Below, piece after piece: positions 1,642-13,072 of a stretch of DNA of 32,752 bases. Numbering within the stretch: position 1 is the first letter of the stretch; each line of letters opens with the position of its first letter. Source of the DNA: Myxococcota bacterium (lineage in GTDB: Bacteria > Myxococcota_A > Polyangia > Polyangiales > Houyiibacteriaceae); assembly GCA_028284955.1 (NCBI GenBank), contig JANQQS010000207.1, positions 1-32,752 on the forward strand. The letters are read 5' to 3'. Below the pieces are notes generated by a model. The model had not been told where the DNA came from and did not search any database. It saw nothing but the letters and a program-made list of their open reading frames with translations. The position numbers and the translations under genes were made by a program.

Positions 1642-1835
1642 TCTACTCCGCCCCGGTTCGGAAGCTGGGCCAGGTTCAGGTAAATTGACGCTGTTCCCCG
1701 ATCCGTCGATCGTTTTCGCAGATTGGCGTAAACTTTGCTGAGAAGCAGGGGTTGTCGCCTAGACGGAGGACCTTTGGTACGTTAGGAGATGGAGTAGGGG
1801 GATTATTCCTTAATTGTGAAGGATCTGTAGGATTT

Positions 1836-4800
1836 ATGAACCCGACCGGGGACGCACTTGTCGCGCGCCTTCGCAGCAATCCAGACGATGTTGGCGCGTT
1901 TGCCGCGCTGAGAGCGCACTACGAGCAGCTCAGGGATTTCGCGTCGTTAGTCAATCTCCTGGAGGGATGGGCAGGGCGCAATGGCCAGGACGAGCTCGCT
2001 GCGCAGGCTCTGCAAGAGGCGGGGGAGATTGCGCTGCGTTATTTGGGTGACGCACGGCGTGCGGTGGGCCTATTCGACCGCGCGCTCGCGCGACAGCCGC
2101 AGCACGATGGCGCAGCAGAACGCTTACAGAAGCTTCTCGAGAAAGCAGGCGACTTTCGGCGCCTCATCGAAATCTTGGAGCGGCGCGCCGCGGCCCTCGA
2201 ATCGGCGCGCGCGAGGCCACAGAAGGTTACGCAGGTTCATCTGAAACTCGGGCAAATCTGGGAACATCATGGACGGCATGCGGACCGAGCGTTGTTCCAC
2301 TTCCGTAAGGCTATTGAGCTCGACAAGACATGCGTGGCGGCGATCTACGGAGCGCGAGAGATCTATCGCAAGGCAGGGGGGTACAAGGCTGCTGCATCGC
2401 TCTACGAGCTCGAGGTTGCCGCCGAGCCGCAGGCGAACCGAAAAGCCGCGCTGCTCTGCGAGCTGGCGCATTTGCGGATGGAGCATCTAGGGGATCACGA
2501 GGGTGCAGTGTCTGTTTTGGCCCGCGCGCAATCTCTTGCGCCCGGTGACTTGAGCCTATTGCACGATTTGGCGACCTATCGGCTCAAGAACGCTGAGCGC
2601 CTCAAAGAGGTTCCGAAGGCGAATCGAGAACGGCAACAGGCTGCAGATCTGCTCGCCCAACTTGCGGAACGAGTCGAGGGGGACAACGCCAAAGCGTACT
2701 GCGAGGCCGCGCTGGACGTAGTGCCTGGCCACGAGGGTGCGCTCGCTAAGCTAGAGGAACTTTACGAGGATTCGAGCGAAGCGGATTCGCTTGCTCCTCG
2801 GTGGGTCGCGTACTTGCGAGCTGAGCCTACGGGTTCGCGAGCCGACGAGCGAAGAAAGCGCCTTGGGCGCGCGTACTTGCGAGCGGGCCAACTCGATGAC
2901 GCAGCCCTGTGCTTTGAAACCCTGCTCCAGAAGGGAGACGTCGAGGCGGTGGAGGTGCTTGCCGACCTCTATCGAGGCTCGAACCGCAAGGACGATCTGG
3001 CACGGGTTTTGTCCTCGGGAGCCCAGCGTTACGCACCGCCGCAGCGCGTTCAAGCGCTGAGGGAGCTTGTCGCGGTGTTGTGCGACCTTGGGCGTCGCGA
3101 TGAAGCCATCGGCGAGGCACAAGCATTGCTTCAGCTCGACCCCACCGATGGTGAAGCCTGCGCGTTTCTCGAGGGCGAGTACGCCCGTCGTCGTGATTTT
3201 GCGAGCCTGCGACAGCTGATGCTCACCGCTTCGAGGATTCCTGGCCTTTCGGCAGACGCCCGCAAACAGAGGCTCCGCGAGGTAGCCCAGATCAGCCAAA
3301 CCCGCCTTCAAGATACCGAAGGGGCGCTCTCTGCGCTCCGCGCCATTATCGCGCTTGATCCGTCCGACCTAGAAGCCCGCTCGGCGCTGATTCAGATGCT
3401 TGAGGCTTCTGAGCTTTGGGACGAGCTCGCACGTTCGCTCGAACGGGAAGCGTCCACCGCCGATACGGCTGAGCGAGCACCGATTCTCCGGCGGCTCGGA
3501 GAGGTCGAGCGCGACCATCGTCACGATTACCCTGCCGCCGCGAACGTATTCGGCGAGCTATATGAGATCTGCCACGACGACGAGGAGATTCGTGACGCGC
3601 TATGTGATGCGCTACTCCTCGCCGATCGAGGGCGCGAAGCCATTCCGTTGCTTCGGGCTCGTATCGATGCGTCGTCGTCGGACGAAGAGCGCGTGCCGCT
3701 GTTTCGAACTTTGGGTTCCATTCTGGAGGATTGCGGCGACGATGAGTCTGCGTTTGAGGTTTCGGCTCGCTTGCTCGATGTGCGCCCAGGCGACACCGAC
3801 GCGCTTGATCGGATGCAAGGAATTGATGAGCGCAACGAAAACTATGCGCGCCTGATCGAAACGCTATCGTACCGAGTTGAGATCGCTCCGCCTCGCGAAT
3901 GCGCTTCAATATTGCGGCGCGCGGGAAAGCTCGCTGATGAAAAACTGTCTGATCTGAATCAGGCAGCCGAGTTTTACAGCCAAGCGCTTCGCTACGAACC
4001 GGACGACTCCCGTGCCCTAGACGCGCTGTGCGATGTGTATGTCCGGTCCGACCGCTACAAAGATCTTCTGGTCATCCTTCGTGAGCGCGCGAGCTCGGCG
4101 GAGGATCCAAATGCGCGAAGGGAACTGTATCGTCGGATCGCGAAAGTTCTGTCGGATCGAATCCGAAACGAGGAAGCGTCGATCGAGGCATGGCGTGAGG
4201 TTCTCAAGAGCGGCGAAGACGAAGAAGCGCTCGGCGCCCTTCGTGTGTATCTGGAGCGTCGAGAAGACTGGGACGAGCTGGTAGATGTTTTGCGGCGGCT
4301 CGGAGACGTTCTGGGCGGCGCAGGCGGCGCCGTCGACCGTCAGGCGCTTCGTGAGCTTCAGCTCGAACGCGCGACCATTCTCTCAGAGCGACTCGACCGC
4401 TACGAGGAAGCGATCGACGTCATCAAAATGGTTCTCGATCGCATTGACCCAAACTACGTTCCCGCGATCGTTCAGCTCGTTCGCTGGTGTGAGACCTTGC
4501 AGGATCAGTCTGGGTTGGCGGACGCCCTCGAACGACAACTTGCCTCCACGCCCGCTGCGGATCTTCGAGTTCCCGTGGCTCGTCGCCTCGCTGAAGTATA
4601 CGAAAGCCAGCTCGGTGATAACCGTCGCGCTATCTCCGCGCTGCTAGTATGGAGCGCCGCGGCGCCTACCGATCCGATTCCCAAGCGACGACTCGCGCCA
4701 CTACTCGAGGCGGAACAGCGTTGGCGTGAACTCGTCGCGGTGCTGGATGACTTGGTGAACACCACTTCGGATTCGGAAGAAGCCGATGAGCTGAAGCGCA

Positions 4801-6917
4801 CTGCCGCGCAGCTGGTTTGGAAGAAGCTCGGAGACCGGGAAGACGCGTGGAGTAGACTCAAAGGTCAGTTGGAGCAGGGAGACGAGCGCTCCAACCCCAT
4901 GCTTAAAGAGTTGGCGGCCGATTTTGGTGAGGAGCGCCTGCTCGCTGAATACTACGTCGAGCTGGCGCAGCGAGCCGAATCGGAAGACGGGCGTCGGTGG
5001 TGGGTCGAGGCCTCTGAGATCTACGAATCACACGTTCGCGACACCCATTCGGCGCTCGAAGCGATGTTGCGCGCGTACGCGATCGACACCTCTGACGAAC
5101 ACATGCTGTCCGAGGTCGAGCGTCTCGGAGCAGCCGCGGAGGCCTGGGATCGATTGGAGCAGGTTTACGACAGCGTGCTCCGTTCAGCGGAGGCTCAGGA
5201 AGACAAACTGATTCTTCTCGTGAGACAAGCGCGATTGCTGGAAGAGCGCGGTCGACGTTCGGAGGAAGCCCTGAACTACTTGCTTCGTGCTTGCGGGATT
5301 GCACCCGACCACGATGAAGTGCTCGAGTACGCGGAGCGGCTGGCCTACGAGACAGGCCGAGAAGAAGAGCTTCTGGTGGTGTATGACCGCCGCCGGGCCA
5401 CGGCGACCAGCGAGGCAGATCAGCTCGACGCATCGCTACGAGCGATTCGAGTGGGCGATGATGTGCTTGACGACGTTGACCGGATGCTTCGATATGTGCG
5501 GGAGGCAGTCGCATCGGTCGTTCGCGCGCCCGAGCTACGCGACGTTCTCGAAGATGACCTTCGGACCCTCGATGACCGGCACGTTCAGCAGGAAGGCAGA
5601 ACGGCTTTGCTGCACATGCTTTGCCAGGTCTATCAGGATGTTGCGGACCATCGCACGGAGCAGTCCGAGTTGGATGCGGCAGTCGACCTCTTGCTCCGCG
5701 CGGCCCGGGTGTATGAAAGCGACCTTGGCGACGAAGAATCCGCTTTTTTATCGCTGTTGCGCGGGATGACGATCCGAGATGGGGGCGATCTCTTGCTCGA
5801 CGAATGTGTGCGCCTCGCCGAGCGCACGGGACGGATTTTGGACTATGCGGAGCGGCTGCGGCGGGGAGTTGATGAAGCGCTCGACCCGGAAACGGCAGCG
5901 AGGTTGCTCGGGCGGCGAGCACTTCTTCTTGAGGAACAGCTCAATGACTATTCGGCAGCGGCGGACGCGTACCGTCAGCTCGCCACGATCGCTCCGGATG
6001 AAGCCGTCGCCCGCGATGGTCTGCGGAGAAACCTTCGCCTATCTGGGCGATATCAAGAGCTCGTCACCGAACTAGAACGAGAAGCGGACTCCGAGCCCGA
6101 TCCGGTCATTCGAGCAGCTGCGCTGAAAGAGGCTGCGCAGTGCTGGGAGGATGATCTGAACAATCACTGGGAGGCGATGGATTGCTGGAAACGGCTCCAA
6201 GAATTGGTTCCGGAGGATTCGGAGGTGCATGCCGCAGTGGACCGATTGGGCCATCACACACGTGTCTTGAGTAGCGAAGAGGCGATGGATAGAGATAGCT
6301 CTTTGGATGATTCGGTTGCTGCGACAGACGAGCATTTGCCGGACGAGATTCCTGAGGAAGTGTCTCGATTCCATGACGTAGCCTCAATGCCCGAGGCCGA
6401 GCCAGCACCGGAGTTCGAGTCGGTTTCGGAACCCGCGTCGATGTCCGAATTCGAACCAGACGTGGATGCAGACGCAACCGTAGCCCTGCCGCCGGATCAC
6501 GAGCCGGACTCGCACTCGACGGGAGAGGAAATGTTGAACGAGTTAGGAACCGGTGATTTCGAAATTGTGTTTCCCGAAGGATTGGCTGCGCTCTCGAGCG
6601 AGCAGAGTGACGTGGCATCCGCGTTGCCCTCCGATCATCTTGTTGACGAAGACGCAACGGAAGCCATTCCTCCGCTGAACTTTGAGAGCGACGCGGACGA
6701 CGATCGCTTCGAACACGGAGCGATCGCAGAAGATTGGATCGCGCAGGTCGAAGAAGACGAATTGGAAGAAGTCGAACTAAGCGGGCTTACGGAACTTGAC
6801 GAAGGGTCTTCCGAAGATGGCGAGTATGACGACTTTGGAGCCGATACCTCGGACGAGCTCGACGTCCGTCGCGCGGAAGAGGCGGACGACGAGCTCCCGA
6901 TAGACGACATCTCGTAG
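1836..6917 (+). CDS. Giant TPR-repeat protein with acidic C-terminal tail
   Basis: The protein has 1693 residues from the ATG at 1836, preceded by GAAGGA and TAGGA purine tracts. The frame is open to a TTG at 1752, but the ATG begins a better-looking protein. Residues about 1-1470 are a continuous array of helical TPR/HAT-like repeats with recurring blocks such as ALALFDRAL, YRQLATIAPDE and LIEILERRA. I see no signal peptide, transmembrane segment or catalytic motif. Residues about 1475-1693 switch abruptly to a low-complexity region very rich in Asp/Glu, probably disordered, with the similar blocks DATVALPP and DATEAIPP. TPR arrays are protein-binding scaffolds; the partner is unknown. The gene stands alone, and its stop faces the end of the minus-strand envelope operon 41 bp away. 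Confidence 0.9.
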   Translation: MNPTGDALVARLRSNPDDVGAFAALRAHYEQLRDFASLVNLLEGWAGRNGQDELAAQALQEAGEIALRYLGDARRAVGLFDRALARQPQHDGAAERLQKLLEKAGDFRRLIEILERRAAALESARARPQKVTQVHLKLGQIWEHHGRHADRALFHFRKAIELDKTCVAAIYGAREIYRKAGGYKAAASLYELEVAAEPQANRKAALLCELAHLRMEHLGDHEGAVSVLARAQSLAPGDLSLLHDLATYRLKNAERLKEVPKANRERQQAADLLAQLAERVEGDNAKAYCEAALDVVPGHEGALAKLEELYEDSSEADSLAPRWVAYLRAEPTGSRADERRKRLGRAYLRAGQLDDAALCFETLLQKGDVEAVEVLADLYRGSNRKDDLARVLSSGAQRYAPPQRVQALRELVAVLCDLGRRDEAIGEAQALLQLDPTDGEACAFLEGEYARRRDFASLRQLMLTASRIPGLSADARKQRLREVAQISQTRLQDTEGALSALRAIIALDPSDLEARSALIQMLEASELWDELARSLEREASTADTAERAPILRRLGEVERDHRHDYPAAANVFGELYEICHDDEEIRDALCDALLLADRGREAIPLLRARIDASSSDEERVPLFRTLGSILEDCGDDESAFEVSARLLDVRPGDTDALDRMQGIDERNENYARLIETLSYRVEIAPPRECASILRRAGKLADEKLSDLNQAAEFYSQALRYEPDDSRALDALCDVYVRSDRYKDLLVILRERASSAEDPNARRELYRRIAKVLSDRIRNEEASIEAWREVLKSGEDEEALGALRVYLERREDWDELVDVLRRLGDVLGGAGGAVDRQALRELQLERATILSERLDRYEEAIDVIKMVLDRIDPNYVPAIVQLVRWCETLQDQSGLADALERQLASTPAADLRVPVARRLAEVYESQLGDNRRAISALLVWSAAAPTDPIPKRRLAPLLEAEQRWRELVAVLDDLVNTTSDSEEADELKRTAAQLVWKKLGDREDAWSRLKGQLEQGDERSNPMLKELAADFGEERLLAEYYVELAQRAESEDGRRWWVEASEIYESHVRDTHSALEAMLRAYAIDTSDEHMLSEVERLGAAAEAWDRLEQVYDSVLRSAEAQEDKLILLVRQARLLEERGRRSEEALNYLLRACGIAPDHDEVLEYAERLAYETGREEELLVVYDRRRATATSEADQLDASLRAIRVGDDVLDDVDRMLRYVREAVASVVRAPELRDVLEDDLRTLDDRHVQQEGRTALLHMLCQVYQDVADHRTEQSELDAAVDLLLRAARVYESDLGDEESAFLSLLRGMTIRDGGDLLLDECVRLAERTGRILDYAERLRRGVDEALDPETAARLLGRRALLLEEQLNDYSAAADAYRQLATIAPDEAVARDGLRRNLRLSGRYQELVTELEREADSEPDPVIRAAALKEAAQCWEDDLNNHWEAMDCWKRLQELVPEDSEVHAAVDRLGHHTRVLSSEEAMDRDSSLDDSVAATDEHLPDEIPEEVSRFHDVASMPEAEPAPEFESVSEPASMSEFEPDVDADATVALPPDHEPDSHSTGEEMLNELGTGDFEIVFPEGLAALSSEQSDVASALPSDHLVDEDATEAIPPLNFESDADDDRFEHGAIAEDWIAQVEEDELEEVELSGLTELDEGSSEDGEYDDFGADTSDELDVRRAEEADDELPIDDIS

Positions 6918-6958: not shown

Positions 6959-7918
6959 CTACGGGATCGCTGCGTGAACGAGGAGTTCGTCTTGCCATTG
7001 CGCCGGGCGCTCAAGCAAGAGTCTCTCCGGCGCGGCGGACTCGATCGCAGACAGAATACACCGATCGTAGGAAGTAGGTTCGGGAGACACAGTCGTCACG
7101 CTCAGTGTTCCGACAAAGAAAGTATCTTGCGCAGAGCTTCCGGGCGTGCTGAACGAGAGCCGGATCTTGGTTTGAGCTGACTTCGGCTGGCCCGTATTCC
7201 AGATCTGAGTGAAGCATTGGGCCATCGTTTTCTTCGTACTCGCTTTGCGGATCCGCTCGACCACGTTCTCATGACCCGCGACCTGCCGGGTGGGTACGGA
7301 AATGGAGATTTTTACCGCGTCGAAGCCTGGTGCGGCAGCGCGTCCGCGAAAAAATCTTCCGCCGGGGTTTCGTTCGTCGAATGCATCGAGTGCGAGGCCG
7401 AGGAACTGCATTCTTGAAGCGAGCTCAAGCACCATGCGTCGTGGTGGTGACCCTGGCAACGATCCTCGGAAGCATGCATCTGCGTGTTTGGCAGCCTCTT
7501 CGCGCTGCGCCGTGGTGGATGCGTGACGCAGAGACGCTTCAGCTCGCCCGCAGAGAATCTCGGGCGGCGGCCGAGCGGAGGCACCTCGAAACGATTCGAT
7601 GGATCGATTGTATGCCGTAAGCGCCTCGCGGTAGTCGTGCACGGCGACATGCTTTTGAGCCACCAAAGCGAGTGCATCCCCTCGGACGCTGGTCTTTCGA
7701 TACCGACATACATGGTCGACGCACACATGGTCGCGCGCGCAATCACCCCTGCCTCCGCAGGTTCCGCCTGCCGGAAGCCCGCTGGCGGGTGGGTTCGCCC
7801 GAGGCCTTTGAGCCGTCGAAGGGTCAGCTGATTCCGCCGCCGGCAAGCCTCTTCGGCACGCGGTTCCTGCGATGGCGCAGAGCAGCAGCAAGCACCAACC
7901 GGGAGCAAGATGCTTCAA
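6959..7918 (-). CDS. Envelope lipoprotein, AgmX/PglI-like C-terminal pattern
   Basis: This is the last gene of a five-gene operon. The predicted 319-residue protein starts at a TTG that overlaps the DUF3570 stop in TTGA, with a TCTGGAG purine tract upstream. The N terminus is a signal peptide ending AGTAC, a weak lipobox because Gly is at -3, followed by a Pro/Ala-rich linker. A short Cys cluster (GTCGGRGDC...VCVDHVC) comes next, then a TPR-like helical stretch (about 80-170). The C-terminal part has two cysteines, in MAQCFTQIW and YDRCILSAIE, spaced as in AgmX/PglI C-terminal domains of Myxococcota. That match is by pattern only. A periplasmic or outer-membrane location is likely; the function is unknown. 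Confidence 0.75.
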   Translation of the reverse strand: MKHLAPGWCLLLLCAIAGTACRRGLPAAESADPSTAQRPRANPPASGLPAGGTCGGRGDCARDHVCVDHVCRYRKTSVRGDALALVAQKHVAVHDYREALTAYNRSIESFRGASARPPPEILCGRAEASLRHASTTAQREEAAKHADACFRGSLPGSPPRRMVLELASRMQFLGLALDAFDERNPGGRFFRGRAAAPGFDAVKISISVPTRQVAGHENVVERIRKASTKKTMAQCFTQIWNTGQPKSAQTKIRLSFSTPGSSAQDTFFVGTLSVTTVSPEPTSYDRCILSAIESAAPERLLLERPAQWQDELLVHAAIP

Positions 7919-9162
7919 AAGGTAGACTCCAGAGAAAGCGTGGCCACAAACGCGCTGTCGTTGGGCACTGCGGCTTGACCGTAGTGAAAATCGTCGAAGG
8001 AGTAGATGAGGACATCAAACTTACCCACCAATCGCAGCCCCCGCAGAAAACCGATCTTGCCGTCGTCGCCCGGCGCCGGTGTCCACTCAGCTCGTCCGCC
8101 AAACGTCCAACTCGACATCGGCGAGAGCTCTCGGTCGCCGGTGAAAAATTGACCGCGAGGAAACCGTACGTAGTCGTCCGAAAAAAACGCGGCACCGGTT
8201 TGCGTGTAGTAACGGGCTCGCGCGCGGAGTCGCACGCTTCCCCCAAGGCGCTGCTCGTAGGCCAGCTCTGCGGTCAGCGATTGGATATCCCAAGTGTCAC
8301 GATAGAGGCGGCCGAACGTTTGCAGGGCCCCTGCCAGTGGCTTAATCCAGAGCCGAGTGCCGAGACCGGCGGCGTATCGCGCACGGTTGTTCGGATGGTT
8401 CTCCTGGGCTGCGCTCCGGCCTAGCCAGACTGCGCGATAGGGGTTTCCCTGGTATCCATCGAGAAGTTGGACGGTGACGGTCGTTTGGGTTGTGAACACT
8501 GGCGCCCACGCCTGAGTCCAGCCGCCTTGGAAGGTCTGAATACTTAGATCGAGCGATTCTCGTTCGTCGGAGTCGAAACAACCGCTGGACGTGGGCATGG
8601 CCTGTCGGTCCACGGCCTCTTGGGCGCGAGGTTGCGCTAAATTGCATACGCGATCGAAACCGCGTGCGTATGCCAAGTCGAGGCCGGTGTTTCGTTCAAA
8701 CAGCTCCGCGCGACCTCCAATGCGAAATGAATGAGACCGATAGTCGCTCTCGTGGCCGTAGCTATAGTCCAGATCTAGGCTGGCTAAGTCGCTTCGCAAG
8801 GTTACCCCGCCGGTGGCGGTGTTGCGGAGGTCATCGAGCTTGGTGGCGCTGGTGATAGCGTCCACTTCGCTAGATGGGTTGTCCACCACCCGGACACTGG
8901 CACCAGAAACGATGTCGGCCTCCCAGCCTGCGCGGATCGTCACAGCTTGCCCAGCGTCTCCGCTCAGGTTCACGGATGGGGTAATCACTGTCATGTCCAA
9001 GGGACCGCCAGCTTCACGAAACACCGTGGTGGTCGCCGAGGCCCTCGCGTCCGACCGCGCTGTGGCCGGAAAGACGACACAGAGCGCTAGCGCGCATCCG
9101 CCCGCGATAAGGGGACGGCGCGACAGTGGGACGTGCCATGTCGAGACTAGTTGCACCCGCAT
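7915..9162 (-). CDS. DUF3570 outer-membrane beta-barrel with flavinylation-like motifs
   Basis: The 415-residue protein has a signal peptide (cleavage near ATARS, about residue 37) and alternating amphipathic strands. It ends in Phe (SLESTF), as outer-membrane barrels do. I recognise DUF3570 from the conserved N-terminal region. That region contains DIVSGAS (83-89), an exact match to the D-x-x-[ST]-G-A-[ST] site modified by the FMN transferase ApbE. It also contains DAITSAT (101-107), the same pattern with Ser for Gly. DUF3570 is usually encoded next to DUF4266, as here; from memory this pair often co-occurs with apbE and thioredoxin-like genes. The ATG at 9162 overlaps the DUF4266 stop by 16 bp behind a GGGGGCGG tract. 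FMN attachment is inferred, not shown. Confidence 0.88.
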   Translation of the reverse strand: MRVQLVSTWHVPLSRRPLIAGGCALALCVVFPATARSDARASATTTVFREAGGPLDMTVITPSVNLSGDAGQAVTIRAGWEADIVSGASVRVVDNPSSEVDAITSATKLDDLRNTATGGVTLRSDLASLDLDYSYGHESDYRSHSFRIGGRAELFERNTGLDLAYARGFDRVCNLAQPRAQEAVDRQAMPTSSGCFDSDERESLDLSIQTFQGGWTQAWAPVFTTQTTVTVQLLDGYQGNPYRAVWLGRSAAQENHPNNRARYAAGLGTRLWIKPLAGALQTFGRLYRDTWDIQSLTAELAYEQRLGGSVRLRARARYYTQTGAAFFSDDYVRFPRGQFFTGDRELSPMSSWTFGGRAEWTPAPGDDGKIGFLRGLRLVGKFDVLIYSFDDFHYGQAAVPNDSAFVATLSLESTF

Positions 9163-9368
9163 CCGCCCCCGGTGACACCGCCTGCGCCGAAGGATCCTTC
9201 GCGATTGTTGAAGACGTGTTCGTCATGGGCCGCGGTTTTCCCGTCCGCGCCAAACGTCATGCTGGGGTCTGCGAGCAGTTCCTTGTCTTCCGGACGCACA
9301 GTGACGCACGCAGTGCCCCATACGCAGCAGACAATCAGGATGAACTTAGAAAAAAACTGTGAGACCAC
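9147..9368 (-). CDS. DUF4266 small lipoprotein
   Basis: The 73-residue lipoprotein has the signal sequence VVSQFFSKFILIVCCVWGTAC. The mature part carries the DUF4266 hallmarks: RPEDKELLADPSMTF, HVFNNREGSFGAGG and the C terminus GGGCGCN. The frame is open further upstream, but I choose the GTG at 9368. AGGAGGAG lies exactly 7 nt before it, and the signal peptide then begins at once. With that start the gene overlaps the end of the SH3/barrel gene by 23 bp and the start of the DUF3570 gene by 16 bp, so translation is probably coupled. The Cys pair in GCGC could bind metal or a cofactor or form a disulfide; the family's role is not established. Confidence 0.88.
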   Translation of the reverse strand: MVSQFFSKFILIVCCVWGTACVTVRPEDKELLADPSMTFGADGKTAAHDEHVFNNREGSFGAGGVTGGGCGCN

Positions 9369-10146
9369 CGCTAAACTCCTCCTGAGCCGAGTAGCGATTC
9401 GGCTCGAAGAATGCATAGGCGCGCGCTTCAATTCGCAGCGTGAGCCGGTAGCGAAAACCGAAACGCAGTCCGCCGCCGCCGTAGAGCATCGCCACCGATC
9501 CAGATTCGAGCAAGAATGTGTCGGCGTTGGGGTCGCTCACCGCCACGCCCCCGCCGACGACCACGTAGGGCACAACGGGCGAATCTGGAAAAATATTGAC
9601 CACGCCACCAGCTCCTCCGAGGAGCAACCGGCCGGCGCGAGACACCGACGCTCCCGCGGTCGCTTCGAAACCGAATTCGGGCCGAAGCATCACTGTGGGC
9701 CGTATCGCCATAAATCCTCCTCCGCCCAAAACTCCGAAGGTAATCGCGATCTCGACGGTGGCGTCGGGGATGGGCGGAGGAGCAAAAAGGCGTGGCCACA
9801 GACGACCCCCCGTCGCTTCTCCTTCGCCGACTTCGTGGTTGTACACGGCGTCGCCCATGATCCAGGCCACGGTGCCATCCTGACGACGAACTTGAAACCA
9901 GTAACCTTCGGTGGCTCTCTGGATGACCTCAAACACGTCGCCTCGCGACGCAAGCCCAATCTGCCGAAAGCCGGGTCCCGGGCCACTACGCATCGCGGCT
10001 GATTCGACGATGACGCGAGCGTAGAGCGTCGGGGAGGAGGACGGTGTTTCCGCGTGTGCTCCCGTACTGAGCGAGAGCGCCAGACTGCCGAAGAATCCGT
10101 ACTTTAGCACGCGGCAAATCATTGTTGTGGTGCGTGCGCGAGTCAC
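9346..10146 (-). CDS. SH3b-domain and outer-membrane barrel fusion protein
   Basis: The 266-residue protein starts at a GTG that overlaps the previous gene's stop (GTGA), 6 nt after AAGG. A GTG seven codons upstream is possible but less well placed. A signal peptide (ICRVLKYGFFGSLALSLSTGAHA) leads into a bacterial SH3 domain, residues about 40-105, with AAMRSGPGPGF, YWFQVRRQDGTVAWI and a closing Val-Tyr. After a short Pro-rich linker comes a Gly/aromatic-rich beta region (about 130-266) ending TVFF, typical of a small outer-membrane barrel. Bacterial SH3 domains often bind peptidoglycan, so it may tie the outer membrane to the cell wall. It sits between the cytochrome-like lipoprotein and DUF4266. 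Confidence 0.82.
   Translation of the reverse strand: MTRARTTTMICRVLKYGFFGSLALSLSTGAHAETPSSSPTLYARVIVESAAMRSGPGPGFRQIGLASRGDVFEVIQRATEGYWFQVRRQDGTVAWIMGDAVYNHEVGEGEATGGRLWPRLFAPPPIPDATVEIAITFGVLGGGGFMAIRPTVMLRPEFGFEATAGASVSRAGRLLLGGAGGVVNIFPDSPVVPYVVVGGGVAVSDPNADTFLLESGSVAMLYGGGGLRFGFRYRLTLRIEARAYAFFEPNRYSAQEEFSGGLTVFF
9376..9383 (-). promoter_or_regulatory. Ribosome-binding site of the DUF4266 gene
   Basis: AGGAGGAG on the minus strand lies 7 nt before the GTG at 9368 and inside the coding end of the SH3/barrel gene. It is the strongest Shine-Dalgarno sequence in the operon and decides the start of the DUF4266 gene. Confidence 0.8.
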
Positions 10147-10694
10147 TGTGCGCCTTGAGTAATCCACTGGATAATCAAATCCGCTTCCGCGTCGCTCGCC
10201 GCGAATATGGCGCGAGGATGCGAGTCGAGCGCGAGGGGGCGACGATAGATGGGGCTCGCAAGCGGATCACTTTGCACCGTAAAGCGTAGCGCCTCCAAGT
10301 TTCGCAAGTACGACTCAGGTGCTGGATCGAGCGTGGAGTCGTCTTCGCAGCGTGGTGGTGCGTCGCTTTCGGCTTCCGCATCGAGTCTCAGCGCCGATCG
10401 CGCGGTGTGGCAGCTTCCGGACTCGCCGGCGGCGCCGGATGCGCACGAGTTGGCGCTGATCACCTCGGGCTGGATACGGCAAAAGAAAAAGTCCTCGTTC
10501 AGGACGAGGTCCGGCGGCACAAAGTTGTCGCCGAGATCTACCGTTCCGCATCCCGAGATGCTCACCAGCATCGTGAAGCAGCATGCTCCCACCGCGCGCT
10601 CGAATGCTGCGATCGCTGGCCGACAAGCCGGCTGCCTGGTTGCGGCTTCATCCGCCGCACGTCGAGTCTCCCCTCCATCGTGTGTTGAGGTCAA
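10143..10694 (-). CDS. Lipoprotein resembling planctomycete-type cytochrome c, stretched haem motif
   Basis: This is the first gene of the operon; 183 residues from a TTG at 10694 with GAGGAA about 9 nt upstream. The hydrophobic segment ends in a good lipobox (ISGC, Cys49), although the N-terminal part before it is unusually long. The mature part follows the PSCyt1 (planctomycete cytochrome C) outline: FFFCRIQPEV (as in 'FF...VQPIL'), a Cys...CysHis unit, and a closing SDPLASPIYRRP...HP.AIF...DAEADLIIQWITQGA like the usual 'HGGG..F...D..Y..I..WI..GA'. Normally the unit is CxxCH; here it is Cys84-X10-Cys95-His96, flanked by extra cysteines at 72 and near 117. It may bind haem through a long-spaced motif or have replaced haem with disulfides. 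Confidence 0.7.
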   Translation of the reverse strand: MTSTHDGGETRRAADEAATRQPACRPAIAAFERAVGACCFTMLVSISGCGTVDLGDNFVPPDLVLNEDFFFCRIQPEVISANSCASGAAGESGSCHTARSALRLDAEAESDAPPRCEDDSTLDPAPESYLRNLEALRFTVQSDPLASPIYRRPLALDSHPRAIFAASDAEADLIIQWITQGAQ

Positions 10695-10853: not shown

Positions 10854-12308
10854 ATGCGCGATTCATGGAAGGCCGCTCGGGTGGGATTGATGGTTTTGCT
10901 AGGAATTGGCGGAATCATCGCGGTCTACTACTACGTGGACGAGCGATCTTCGGCCGGTGACGGGTACAGCGTATACGCGCTCTTCGAAGACGCACAAGGT
11001 GTGATTCCAAAATCGCGGGTCGTCATTGCGGGTATTCCAATCGGCCACATCAAGCGGGTACGCCTCAGTGGTGCGCGCGCGCGGGTCGACATTCAAGTCC
11101 GCTCAGACGTCAAGCTGCACCGCGATGCGACGGTGACTTTGCGGACCGTTTCCTTGCTGGGAGAGAAGGTGCTCGTGGTGAGTCCCGGTTCCTTGGGCGA
11201 GCCGCTTCTTCGCGACGGTGACCAAATTCGCGTCGCGGAGGGACAAGCATCCATTGAGGATGCCGTAGATACGATTGACGCGATCGCCACCAACGTGTTG
11301 GCCGTGACTGAACAGATGCGGCGCGCGTTCGGCAATGACGAGGCAGGCCAGCGTATGGAGGACTCGCTTCAAAATCTCAGTGAGGCGCTCGAGAGCGTCA
11401 ACCGGACGATCCAAATCAATGAGGATGTCATTAGTCGGGCGATTGCGAACGTCGAGTCCACGACGGAAGAGGCGGGCCCCAAACTCATCACCATTCTCAA
11501 CAATATTGAACAGGCCACCGAGCGCGTGGGTCGCGTGGTCGCGGAGGGCGAGCCCGACGTAGACGAAGCACTCGATTCAATCAATCGCTCAACCGCGCAA
11601 CTTGAGGAAGTCCTGTCCGACGTACGCCAGGTGACCGATCGGACGGCTCGAGGAGAAGGAACGATCGGTCGACTGACCCAGGACGAGGCGTTGATCGACG
11701 AAGTCGAGGGAGTCGCCGAGGGATTGAACAACCTCGTTGGTGGGATTAGCCGGCTTCAAACGGTGATCGAGCTGAGGAGCGAGTACAACTTAATCGCCAA
11801 CACCTTCAAGACCTACTTTTCGCTTCGAATTGTTCCACGAGAAGACCGCTATTTCTTGATTCAATTGGTGGACGATCCGCGTGGGTCGCTCAGCGTGAGC
11901 GAGACTCTTGTGCGACGGAGTCCGGCACTGCCTGATGAACCAGGGGAGTTTCAAGAAACCAGAATCACGCGTACGGATTCGCTGCGATTTTCGTTGCAGA
12001 TGGCGAAGCGAATTTCGTTCGCCACGTTTCGTTTCGGAATCATGGAGTCGTCAGGCGGCTTGGGAGTCGACCTGCATCTTTTCGAAGATCGTTTGGAACT
12101 GGCAAACGATGTCTTTGCGATCGGTGAGCAAGCGTTTCCCCGGCTGCGCGTTCGCGCCGCGTTCGAAGTGCTGACGCGGCTTTGGGTGGTGAGCGGTGTT
12201 GATGATGTACTCAACGATTCGAGCGACTTCTTTATGGGCTTGATGCTCCGCTTCAACGATGAAGATCTAAAGTCGATCCTGCCCTTTGTGGGTGGGCTGT
12301 CTCCGTAA
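10854..12308 (+). CDS. MCE/MlaD-family lipid-transport protein with C-terminal beta domain
   Basis: The 484-residue protein has one N-terminal transmembrane anchor (VGLMVLLGIGGIIAVYYYV, about 10-28). An MCE domain follows (about 38-125: GYSVYALFEDAQGVIPKSRVVIAGIPIGHIKRV ... LLGEKVLVVSPG), then a long helical region (about 135-305), probably a coiled coil. MCE proteins form periplasmic hexamers that carry phospholipids or other hydrophobic molecules between membranes. The C-terminal third (about 315-484) is beta-rich (YFSLRIVPREDRYFLIQLV, ATFRFGIMESSGGLGVDLHLF, LMLRFNDEDLK), resembling outer-membrane strands and absent from E. coli MlaD. Its stop overlaps the next ATG by one base (TAATG). No mlaE or mlaF lies in the window. 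Confidence 0.88.
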   Translation: MRDSWKAARVGLMVLLGIGGIIAVYYYVDERSSAGDGYSVYALFEDAQGVIPKSRVVIAGIPIGHIKRVRLSGARARVDIQVRSDVKLHRDATVTLRTVSLLGEKVLVVSPGSLGEPLLRDGDQIRVAEGQASIEDAVDTIDAIATNVLAVTEQMRRAFGNDEAGQRMEDSLQNLSEALESVNRTIQINEDVISRAIANVESTTEEAGPKLITILNNIEQATERVGRVVAEGEPDVDEALDSINRSTAQLEEVLSDVRQVTDRTARGEGTIGRLTQDEALIDEVEGVAEGLNNLVGGISRLQTVIELRSEYNLIANTFKTYFSLRIVPREDRYFLIQLVDDPRGSLSVSETLVRRSPALPDEPGEFQETRITRTDSLRFSLQMAKRISFATFRFGIMESSGGLGVDLHLFEDRLELANDVFAIGEQAFPRLRVRAAFEVLTRLWVVSGVDDVLNDSSDFFMGLMLRFNDEDLKSILPFVGGLSP

Positions 12309-13072
12309 TGGCCGCTCCCGTCGGATTTGGCCGCGGGGCCGGGTTTGTGATGGCTGGCGCCCGGTTTGTGTTCTTTCGACATCCTGGGTTGATTCGCTAT
12401 TGGATTTTCCCCTGGGTCATCAACACCGGGGTTTTTTTCCTGCTTTGCTTCGCGGTGTGGTTCTACTTCGACGATGTGGCCAATTGGATTTGGCTACCCT
12501 CGCAGTCGACGGGCGCGGTCGGCATATTGATGCGGGGGCTGCATTGGGTTCTTGCGGTGGTCGTCGCGATCCTGATGTTGGGTATAGCGGTCGTGCTCAT
12601 GGTCCTCGTAGGGGGTGTGCTGGCCGCGCCGTTCTATGACGCGCTGAGTGAGGAGGTGGAGCGCTTGGTTCAGCGGGGGGTCGATGCACCGTTGAGCGTT
12701 TCAGCCTTCCTTCGCGATGCCTTTCGTGCCGTGGGGCTCGAGCTTGTTAAGCTCGTGCTGTACCTCGCGGCGTTGGTTCCCGTGTGGCTCCTCGGGTTGT
12801 GGCTTCCCGTAGTGGGCCAGGTGATTGCTACACTTGCGGGTTTCGTATTTACGGTGACCTATTTGGCGCTCGAACATCTCGACCGCCCCGCCGCTCGCCG
12901 GGGTTACTCTATCAGCCGACGACTAGAGCTTCTAAGAACCCGATTTTTCGCTGCGTTTGGGTTCGGATGCGCAGTGTGGTGTCTCATGCTCGTTCCACTC
13001 GTGAACCTGTTGTTCATCCCCGTCGCGGTAACCGGCGGCACGTTGCTGTTCCTCGAACTGGACGAGACATAA
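12308..13072 (+). CDS. EI24/CysZ-family membrane protein
   Basis: The 254-residue inner-membrane protein has four to six hydrophobic segments (about 36-58, 78-104, 138-175, 208-248). It shows the EI24/CysZ outline: an N-terminal GFVMAGARFVFFRHPGLIRYWIFPWVINTGVFF block, the APFYDALSEEVERL loop and a C-terminal FIPVAVTGGTLLFLEL block. CysZ of E. coli is linked to sulfate uptake, but many EI24 proteins in other phyla have no known substrate. No sulfate-assimilation gene is nearby, so I do not assign one. Its ATG is fused to the MCE stop, implying translational coupling. A joint role in envelope lipid handling is inference from this pairing. Confidence 0.85.
   Translation: MAAPVGFGRGAGFVMAGARFVFFRHPGLIRYWIFPWVINTGVFFLLCFAVWFYFDDVANWIWLPSQSTGAVGILMRGLHWVLAVVVAILMLGIAVVLMVLVGGVLAAPFYDALSEEVERLVQRGVDAPLSVSAFLRDAFRAVGLELVKLVLYLAALVPVWLLGLWLPVVGQVIATLAGFVFTVTYLALEHLDRPAARRGYSISRRLELLRTRFFAAFGFGCAVWCLMLVPLVNLLFIPVAVTGGTLLFLELDET

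Follow-up and report, generated by a model that had tools for sequence, protein, structure and literature searches.

A candidate flavin and c-haem electron-transfer cassette of the outer membrane, centred on a DUF3570 barrel, in Myxococcota

A gene cassette found in many Myxococcota probably builds an outer-membrane module that transfers electrons between covalently bound flavin and c-type haem. The cassette was recognised in the window, the whole stretch of 32,752 nucleotides analysed here, which comes from a draft myxococcotal genome. Its partner set differs from those of described DUF3570 systems and points to an undescribed outer-membrane electron route. The flavin half of this finding is already known. 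The variable-length haem motif and the outward-facing flavins are its new parts, and both are putative; all electron flow in the cassette is our inference.

The original prediction described five overlapping genes for exported proteins. All five (G1 to G5, Table 1) are real and lie on the minus strand between positions 6959 and 10694, but overlap at only three of the four junctions; with the likeliest starts, G1 and G2 are separated by about 20 nt. The start codon of G1 is uncertain. Pfam models assigned G2 to SH3_3 (36.5 bits, cut-off 27), G3 to DUF4266 (65.4 bits, cut-off 27) and G4 to DUF3570 (PF12094; 98.4 bits, cut-off 25). The C-terminus of G2 has a weak similarity to TIGR04565 OMP_myx_plus (22.7 bits, below cut-off). 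Neither G1 nor G5 matched any Pfam or NCBIfam model, and an Rfam search of the window returned no match.

Table 1. Genes and predicted sites of the cassette, in window coordinates
Feature	Coordinates	Strand	Basis
G1: predicted lipoprotein (lipobox ISGC), cytochrome c-like, C-x10-C-H	10143..10694	-	hhalign homology, conservation, AF2
Candidate haem c attachment motif CX10CH of G1, CASGAAGESGSCH	10407..10445	-	alignment conservation
Candidate distal haem ligand, His111 of mature G1	10218..10220	-	conservation; aligned to invariant His of CX3CH family
G2: exported, SH3_3 domain and C-terminal small barrel domain; likeliest start ATG 10122	9346..10122	-	Pfam; weak TIGR04565
G3: DUF4266 lipoprotein; likeliest start GTG 9368	9147..9368	-	Pfam; Shine-Dalgarno AGGAGGAG before the GTG
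C-terminal CGC (CXC) motif of G3	9153..9161	-	conserved in cassette DUF4266 proteins
G4: DUF3570, predicted 16-strand outer-membrane barrel, C-terminal Phe; likeliest start ATG 9162	7915..9162	-	Pfam; AF2; VIA-align
Flavinylation site 1 of G4 (predicted), DIVSGAS	8896..8916	-	invariant in 23 orthologues
Flavinylation site 2 of G4 (predicted), DAITSAT	8842..8862	-	invariant in 23 orthologues
G5: lineage-restricted lipoprotein; likeliest start TTG 7918	6959..7918	-	no family match; 14/80 loci

The DUF3570 protein is very likely a substrate of ApbE. DIVSGAS was correctly recognised as an exact ApbE-type flavinylation motif. A second site, DAITSAT, had been missed; it lies 11 residues beyond the first and has Ser in place of the consensus Gly (TSAT). 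The D-x-V-[ST]-G-A-[ST] pattern of site 1 and the D-x-x-[ST]-x-A-[ST] pattern of site 2 hold without exception in 23 DUF3570 orthologues, namely the protein of the window and others encoded beside an SH3 gene; their pairwise identity averages 41% and falls to 28% at the lowest. The SGAS residues on which the prediction turned are conserved. In other DUF3570 lineages of the class, the Gly position is mostly occupied by Ser or Ala. Replacing Gly with Ala in a different ApbE target reduced flavinylation to about half (PMC12052999), so these proteins may still be modified. The genome (6.07 Mb in 223 contigs, 96.6% complete) encodes one ApbE, as the prediction required, unlinked to the cassette on contig C183 (E 1.9e-78); its lipoprotein-type N-terminus predicts a lipoprotein. 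No match to the FMN_bind and DUF2271 substrates was found in the genome, which leaves DUF3570 proteins as the main candidate substrates of its ApbE. Across a sample of the class, ApbE occurred in 40/40 DUF3570-positive and 9/19 DUF3570-negative genomes (Fisher p 1.5e-6), and across a sample of the phylum in 88/89 and 145/195, respectively (p 2e-8), kinship being ignored in both tests. Among the DUF3570 loci fetched from the class, none had ApbE beside DUF3570; it adjoins the outgroup gene L121.

Precedent for this modification exists. In Chlorobium luteolum, ApbE was shown to flavinylate a DUF3570 protein at two [ST]GA[ST] sites. The same study described DUF4266 as a small secreted DUF3570 partner with a conserved CXC and assigned both to gene clusters that also encode ApbE, DsbD and thioredoxin-like proteins (Meheust et al. 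2021, PMC8238504). The claim that the gene set has no described function was therefore too strong. The same authors termed the function of DUF3570-based transfer uncertain. No further paper naming DUF3570 or DUF4266 was found in the literature searched.

The proposed haem partner is G1, which likely carries haem. The description of this lipoprotein as cytochrome-c-like is upheld in part: homology and motif support a haem-type protein, whereas CXXCH is absent and no family model matches. The motif is instead C-x10-C-H. A C-xn-C-H motif with n of 4 to 13 occurs in 71 of 72 cassette G1 proteins, most often with n=13 (24 cases) or n=10 (22 cases). The distal His is present in 99% of these 72 proteins and at least 90% of a 67-sequence alignment, in which C47, H48, P28, P105 and W129 are invariant and C36 (>90%), H111, G7, L56 and N84 nearly so. 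A G1 profile aligned with CX3CH lipoproteins encoded near other DUF3570 genes (the A4 set; hhalign probability 98.1, E 7e-14), placing CH on CH and the distal His of G1 on the invariant His of that family. The CX3CH lipoproteins, found beside other Polyangia DUF3570 genes, share with G1 a lipobox, the C..CH followed by a conserved distal His, and DUF4266/DUF3570 neighbours; they differ in a spacing fixed at 3, mostly as CHG, whereas that of the G1 family varies. They have no Pfam or NCBIfam name, and with no family model to identify it, haem in these lipoproteins is likewise putative. No cytochrome family model scored above its cut-off for G1 or these relatives. Iterated searches from G1 also led to proteins with CXXCH, which scored weakly against cytochrome families. 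An AF2 model of G1 (pLDDT 90.6) has the order helix, C..CH, helices, His and C-terminal helix, which we take to be that of class I cytochrome c. Comparison of the model with solved structures by Foldseek and VIA-align matched no cytochrome or other structure. Matches of the G1 profile in the PDB to poxvirus A16/OPG143 chains (E 0.003) were rejected as chance similarity among cysteine-rich proteins, and a match of the CX3CH set to a bacteriocin (E 0.8) was rejected as noise.

It is possible, but rather unlikely, that the haem of G1 has been lost, that its two cysteines form a disulphide or a metal site, and that the DUF4266 thiols feed the FMN as proposed for DsbD-type clusters. The spacing from C to CH is unlike ordinary CXXCH, G1 has no cytochrome fold match, and the genome encodes a DsbD with a thioredoxin domain. 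Unusual haem c spacings in the literature searched were limited to CX3CH, CX4CH and CX15CH, for the last of which dedicated lyases are reported (PMC10663686). However, both the distal His and the His that follows the second Cys are near invariant while the loop between the cysteines varies, and the homologues of G1 have CX3CH with the same His, which speaks against this reading. The genome encodes three Cytochrom_C_asm proteins.

The cassette is conserved well beyond the genome studied. A scan of genome contigs gave 79 loci, 80 with the window, from Sandaracinaceae, Polyangiaceae, Labilithrix, Nannocystaceae, Kofleriaceae and other Myxococcota. Neighbourhoods were read from HMM matches, as the simple gene caller often took antisense ORFs in this high-GC DNA. 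Genes were ordered by the start of their stop-to-stop ORFs, and a few loci appear shuffled only through overlap of long ORFs. G1, the SH3 and barrel protein, DUF4266 and DUF3570 are all present in 70/80 loci, and five of the remaining ten are cut by contig ends. Orthologues of G2 were found in 23 loci of one scan and 72 of another. All 23 cassette DUF4266 proteins have a C-terminal GGGCGCN. Since gene order and both motifs are kept in distant relatives, the line-up is not due to chance. The five-gene operon originally proposed is thus reduced to a widespread four-gene unit; G5 lies beside it in 14 of the 80 loci, those of the closest relatives (Sandaracinaceae-type), and is not part of the conserved unit.

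The 23 cassette DUF3570 proteins are monophyletic (support 1.00), and their sister clade (0.87) consists of DUF3570 proteins encoded mostly beside CX3CH lipoproteins; the cytochrome-associated DUF3570 lineages cluster in the tree (support 0.87). Flanks of up to 6 kb around the 79 loci contained neither ApbE nor any relative of the thioredoxin and DsbD encoded by this genome; for other thioredoxin types, the search of these flanks was by motif only. The flanks instead hold MlaD, sigma-54/FHA, YicC, OmpA and others. In the sister clade, thioredoxin/DsbD-like ORFs lie close to DUF3570 at loci such as L099, and other loci encode CX3CH and diheme proteins. The cassette thus resembles an offshoot that kept the cytochrome-type partner, with the DsbD-type genes elsewhere.

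Alternatively, the cassette may sense or buffer redox stress in the envelope or aid the maturation of other proteins, with no external acceptor involved. A repair role would also be compatible with an SH3 domain, a CXC thiol protein and redox proteins present in single copy, and no respiratory enzyme is encoded among the flanking genes scanned. The several cytochrome genes in sister DUF3570 loci are a better fit to electron transfer, and we regard this alternative as unlikely.

Both flavin sites are probably on the outer face of the cell, on the long-loop side of the modelled DUF3570 barrel. The AF2 model has 16 strands (pLDDT 92.1, pTM 0.88) and aligned over its full length to outer-membrane barrels, with VIA-align Z scores of up to 21.3 (BamA) and of 18-19 for PgaA, BcsC and CymA. 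The modelled chain begins near the predicted end of the signal peptide, and its last residue is Phe, a typical signature of outer-membrane strands. The loops after odd strands span 2-27 residues and the turns after even strands mostly 2-4 (one of 14), from which the odd-to-even loops are predicted to point out of the cell. Strand 3 terminates in site 1 (model residues 49-55), and strand 4 starts with site 2 (67-73). Both sites flank loop 2, which by this topology rule would put both FMNs at the outer mouth. The possibility that the motifs are buried in barrel strands is not borne out by the model, in which site 1 closes a strand, site 2 lies in the next loop and neither is mid-barrel. Residues 62-71, in the loop bearing site 2, are the sole low-confidence part of the barrel (pLDDT <50). 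An outer-membrane porin or structural cassette whose SGAS site is unmodified in vivo would account for the alignment of DUF3570 with ordinary porins and export barrels, but is very improbable, because both flavinylation sites are strictly conserved, DUF3570 is linked to ApbE and flavinylation of a family member has been demonstrated (PMC8238504).

If the cassette is an electron-transfer module, the single lipoprotein ApbE of the genome would attach FMN to DUF3570 at the Ser or Thr of its two D-x-x-[ST]-x-A-[ST] sites, probably before the exported chain folds into the outer membrane. DUF3570 would then insert as a 16-strand barrel whose two FMNs lie near each other at a single mouth, most probably the outer. 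The G1 lipoprotein would hold one c-type haem on C-xn-C-H with the distal His, and this haem could exchange electrons with the FMNs in either direction. DUF4266, a CXC lipoprotein, may connect thioredoxin-type carriers to the barrel, either as a thiol relay or as a chaperone. The SH3 and barrel protein may be another subunit in the envelope that perhaps links the complex to peptidoglycan. The module would most likely serve to reduce an external or surface acceptor, for which ferric iron is a candidate. Against the module, one haem cannot span the outer membrane. Also weighing against it are the searches with G1, which matched no solved cytochrome and no cytochrome family model above cut-off, the flanks free of ApbE and own-type thioredoxin or DsbD within 6 kb, which point to no electron source, and the low confidence of the loop bearing site 2.

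Porin-cytochrome conduits of the MtrCAB type combine an outer-membrane barrel with a c-type haem protein, a combination shared with the cassette as a working idea. They differ in that the cassette has no multihaem protein and its barrel would itself bear a redox cofactor. A long insert between two haem-binding cysteines, as in G1, is also found in the CX15CH haem site, which we take to be that of Wolinella MccA and Shewanella SirA. However, those proteins are multihaem sulphite reductases with a dedicated lyase, whereas G1 is a small single-motif lipoprotein with variable spacing and a putative haem. The DsbD-type DUF3570/DUF4266/ApbE clusters share with the cassette a two-site DUF3570 beside a CXC-ended DUF4266, with ApbE in the genome (PMC8238504). 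In contrast to those clusters, the cassette has no ApbE or own-type thioredoxin or DsbD within 6 kb and has the C-xn-C-H lipoprotein and the SH3 and barrel protein instead; its site 2 also lacks the consensus Gly of the published systems.

In the literature found, the role of DUF3570 is uncertain and the location of its flavins is unstated. The cassette links DUF3570 to a cytochrome-like partner, and the barrel model gives a testable location for the flavins on the outer face. If the CXnCH family bears haem, haem c attachment tolerates a range of spacings, and such proteins would escape genome scans limited to CXXCH. We advance only tentatively the further proposal that a surface-facing pair of covalent FMNs on a barrel, with a cytochrome lipoprotein whose C-xn-C-H site is length-tolerant (n=4-13), constitutes both a new type of outer-membrane conduit and a new class of haem c site, spread through Polyangia.

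Several neighbouring genes deserve mention. The DsbD with a C-terminal thioredoxin domain (L201:335-589) is at the start of contig C150 of genome G000, which also has a CX3CH-family match at 9946-10254; it may belong to the second DUF3570 cluster of that genome, split by assembly. An exported protein of 645-665 aa adjoins another DUF3570/DUF4266 lineage (L043:3488-5485 and L056:1910-3847). It contains a flavinylation-like DAVTMAT stretch and resembles, below threshold, DUF2271, which is likewise a known substrate of ApbE. A large protein beside a DUF3570 locus (L070:2027-4912; relatives in L089 and L120) has cytochrome c-type matches and weak matches to HZS_alpha (hydrazine synthase alpha-like) and PD40. 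In many Polyangiaceae loci an FHA and sigma-54 activator gene is convergent with the cassette (L151:7201-8583). In the window, the region next to the cassette (10854-13072) holds a divergent MlaD gene, whose MlaD/MCE-type product scores 54.7 bits, and a gene for a membrane protein resembling EI24/CysZ. The MlaD gene also lies upstream of the cassette in the near relatives L124 and L125; as it is retained in near relatives only, it was dropped as a member of the module. Convergent with G5, a gene at 1752-6917 encodes a TPR-rich protein of 1721 aa with an acidic C-terminus.
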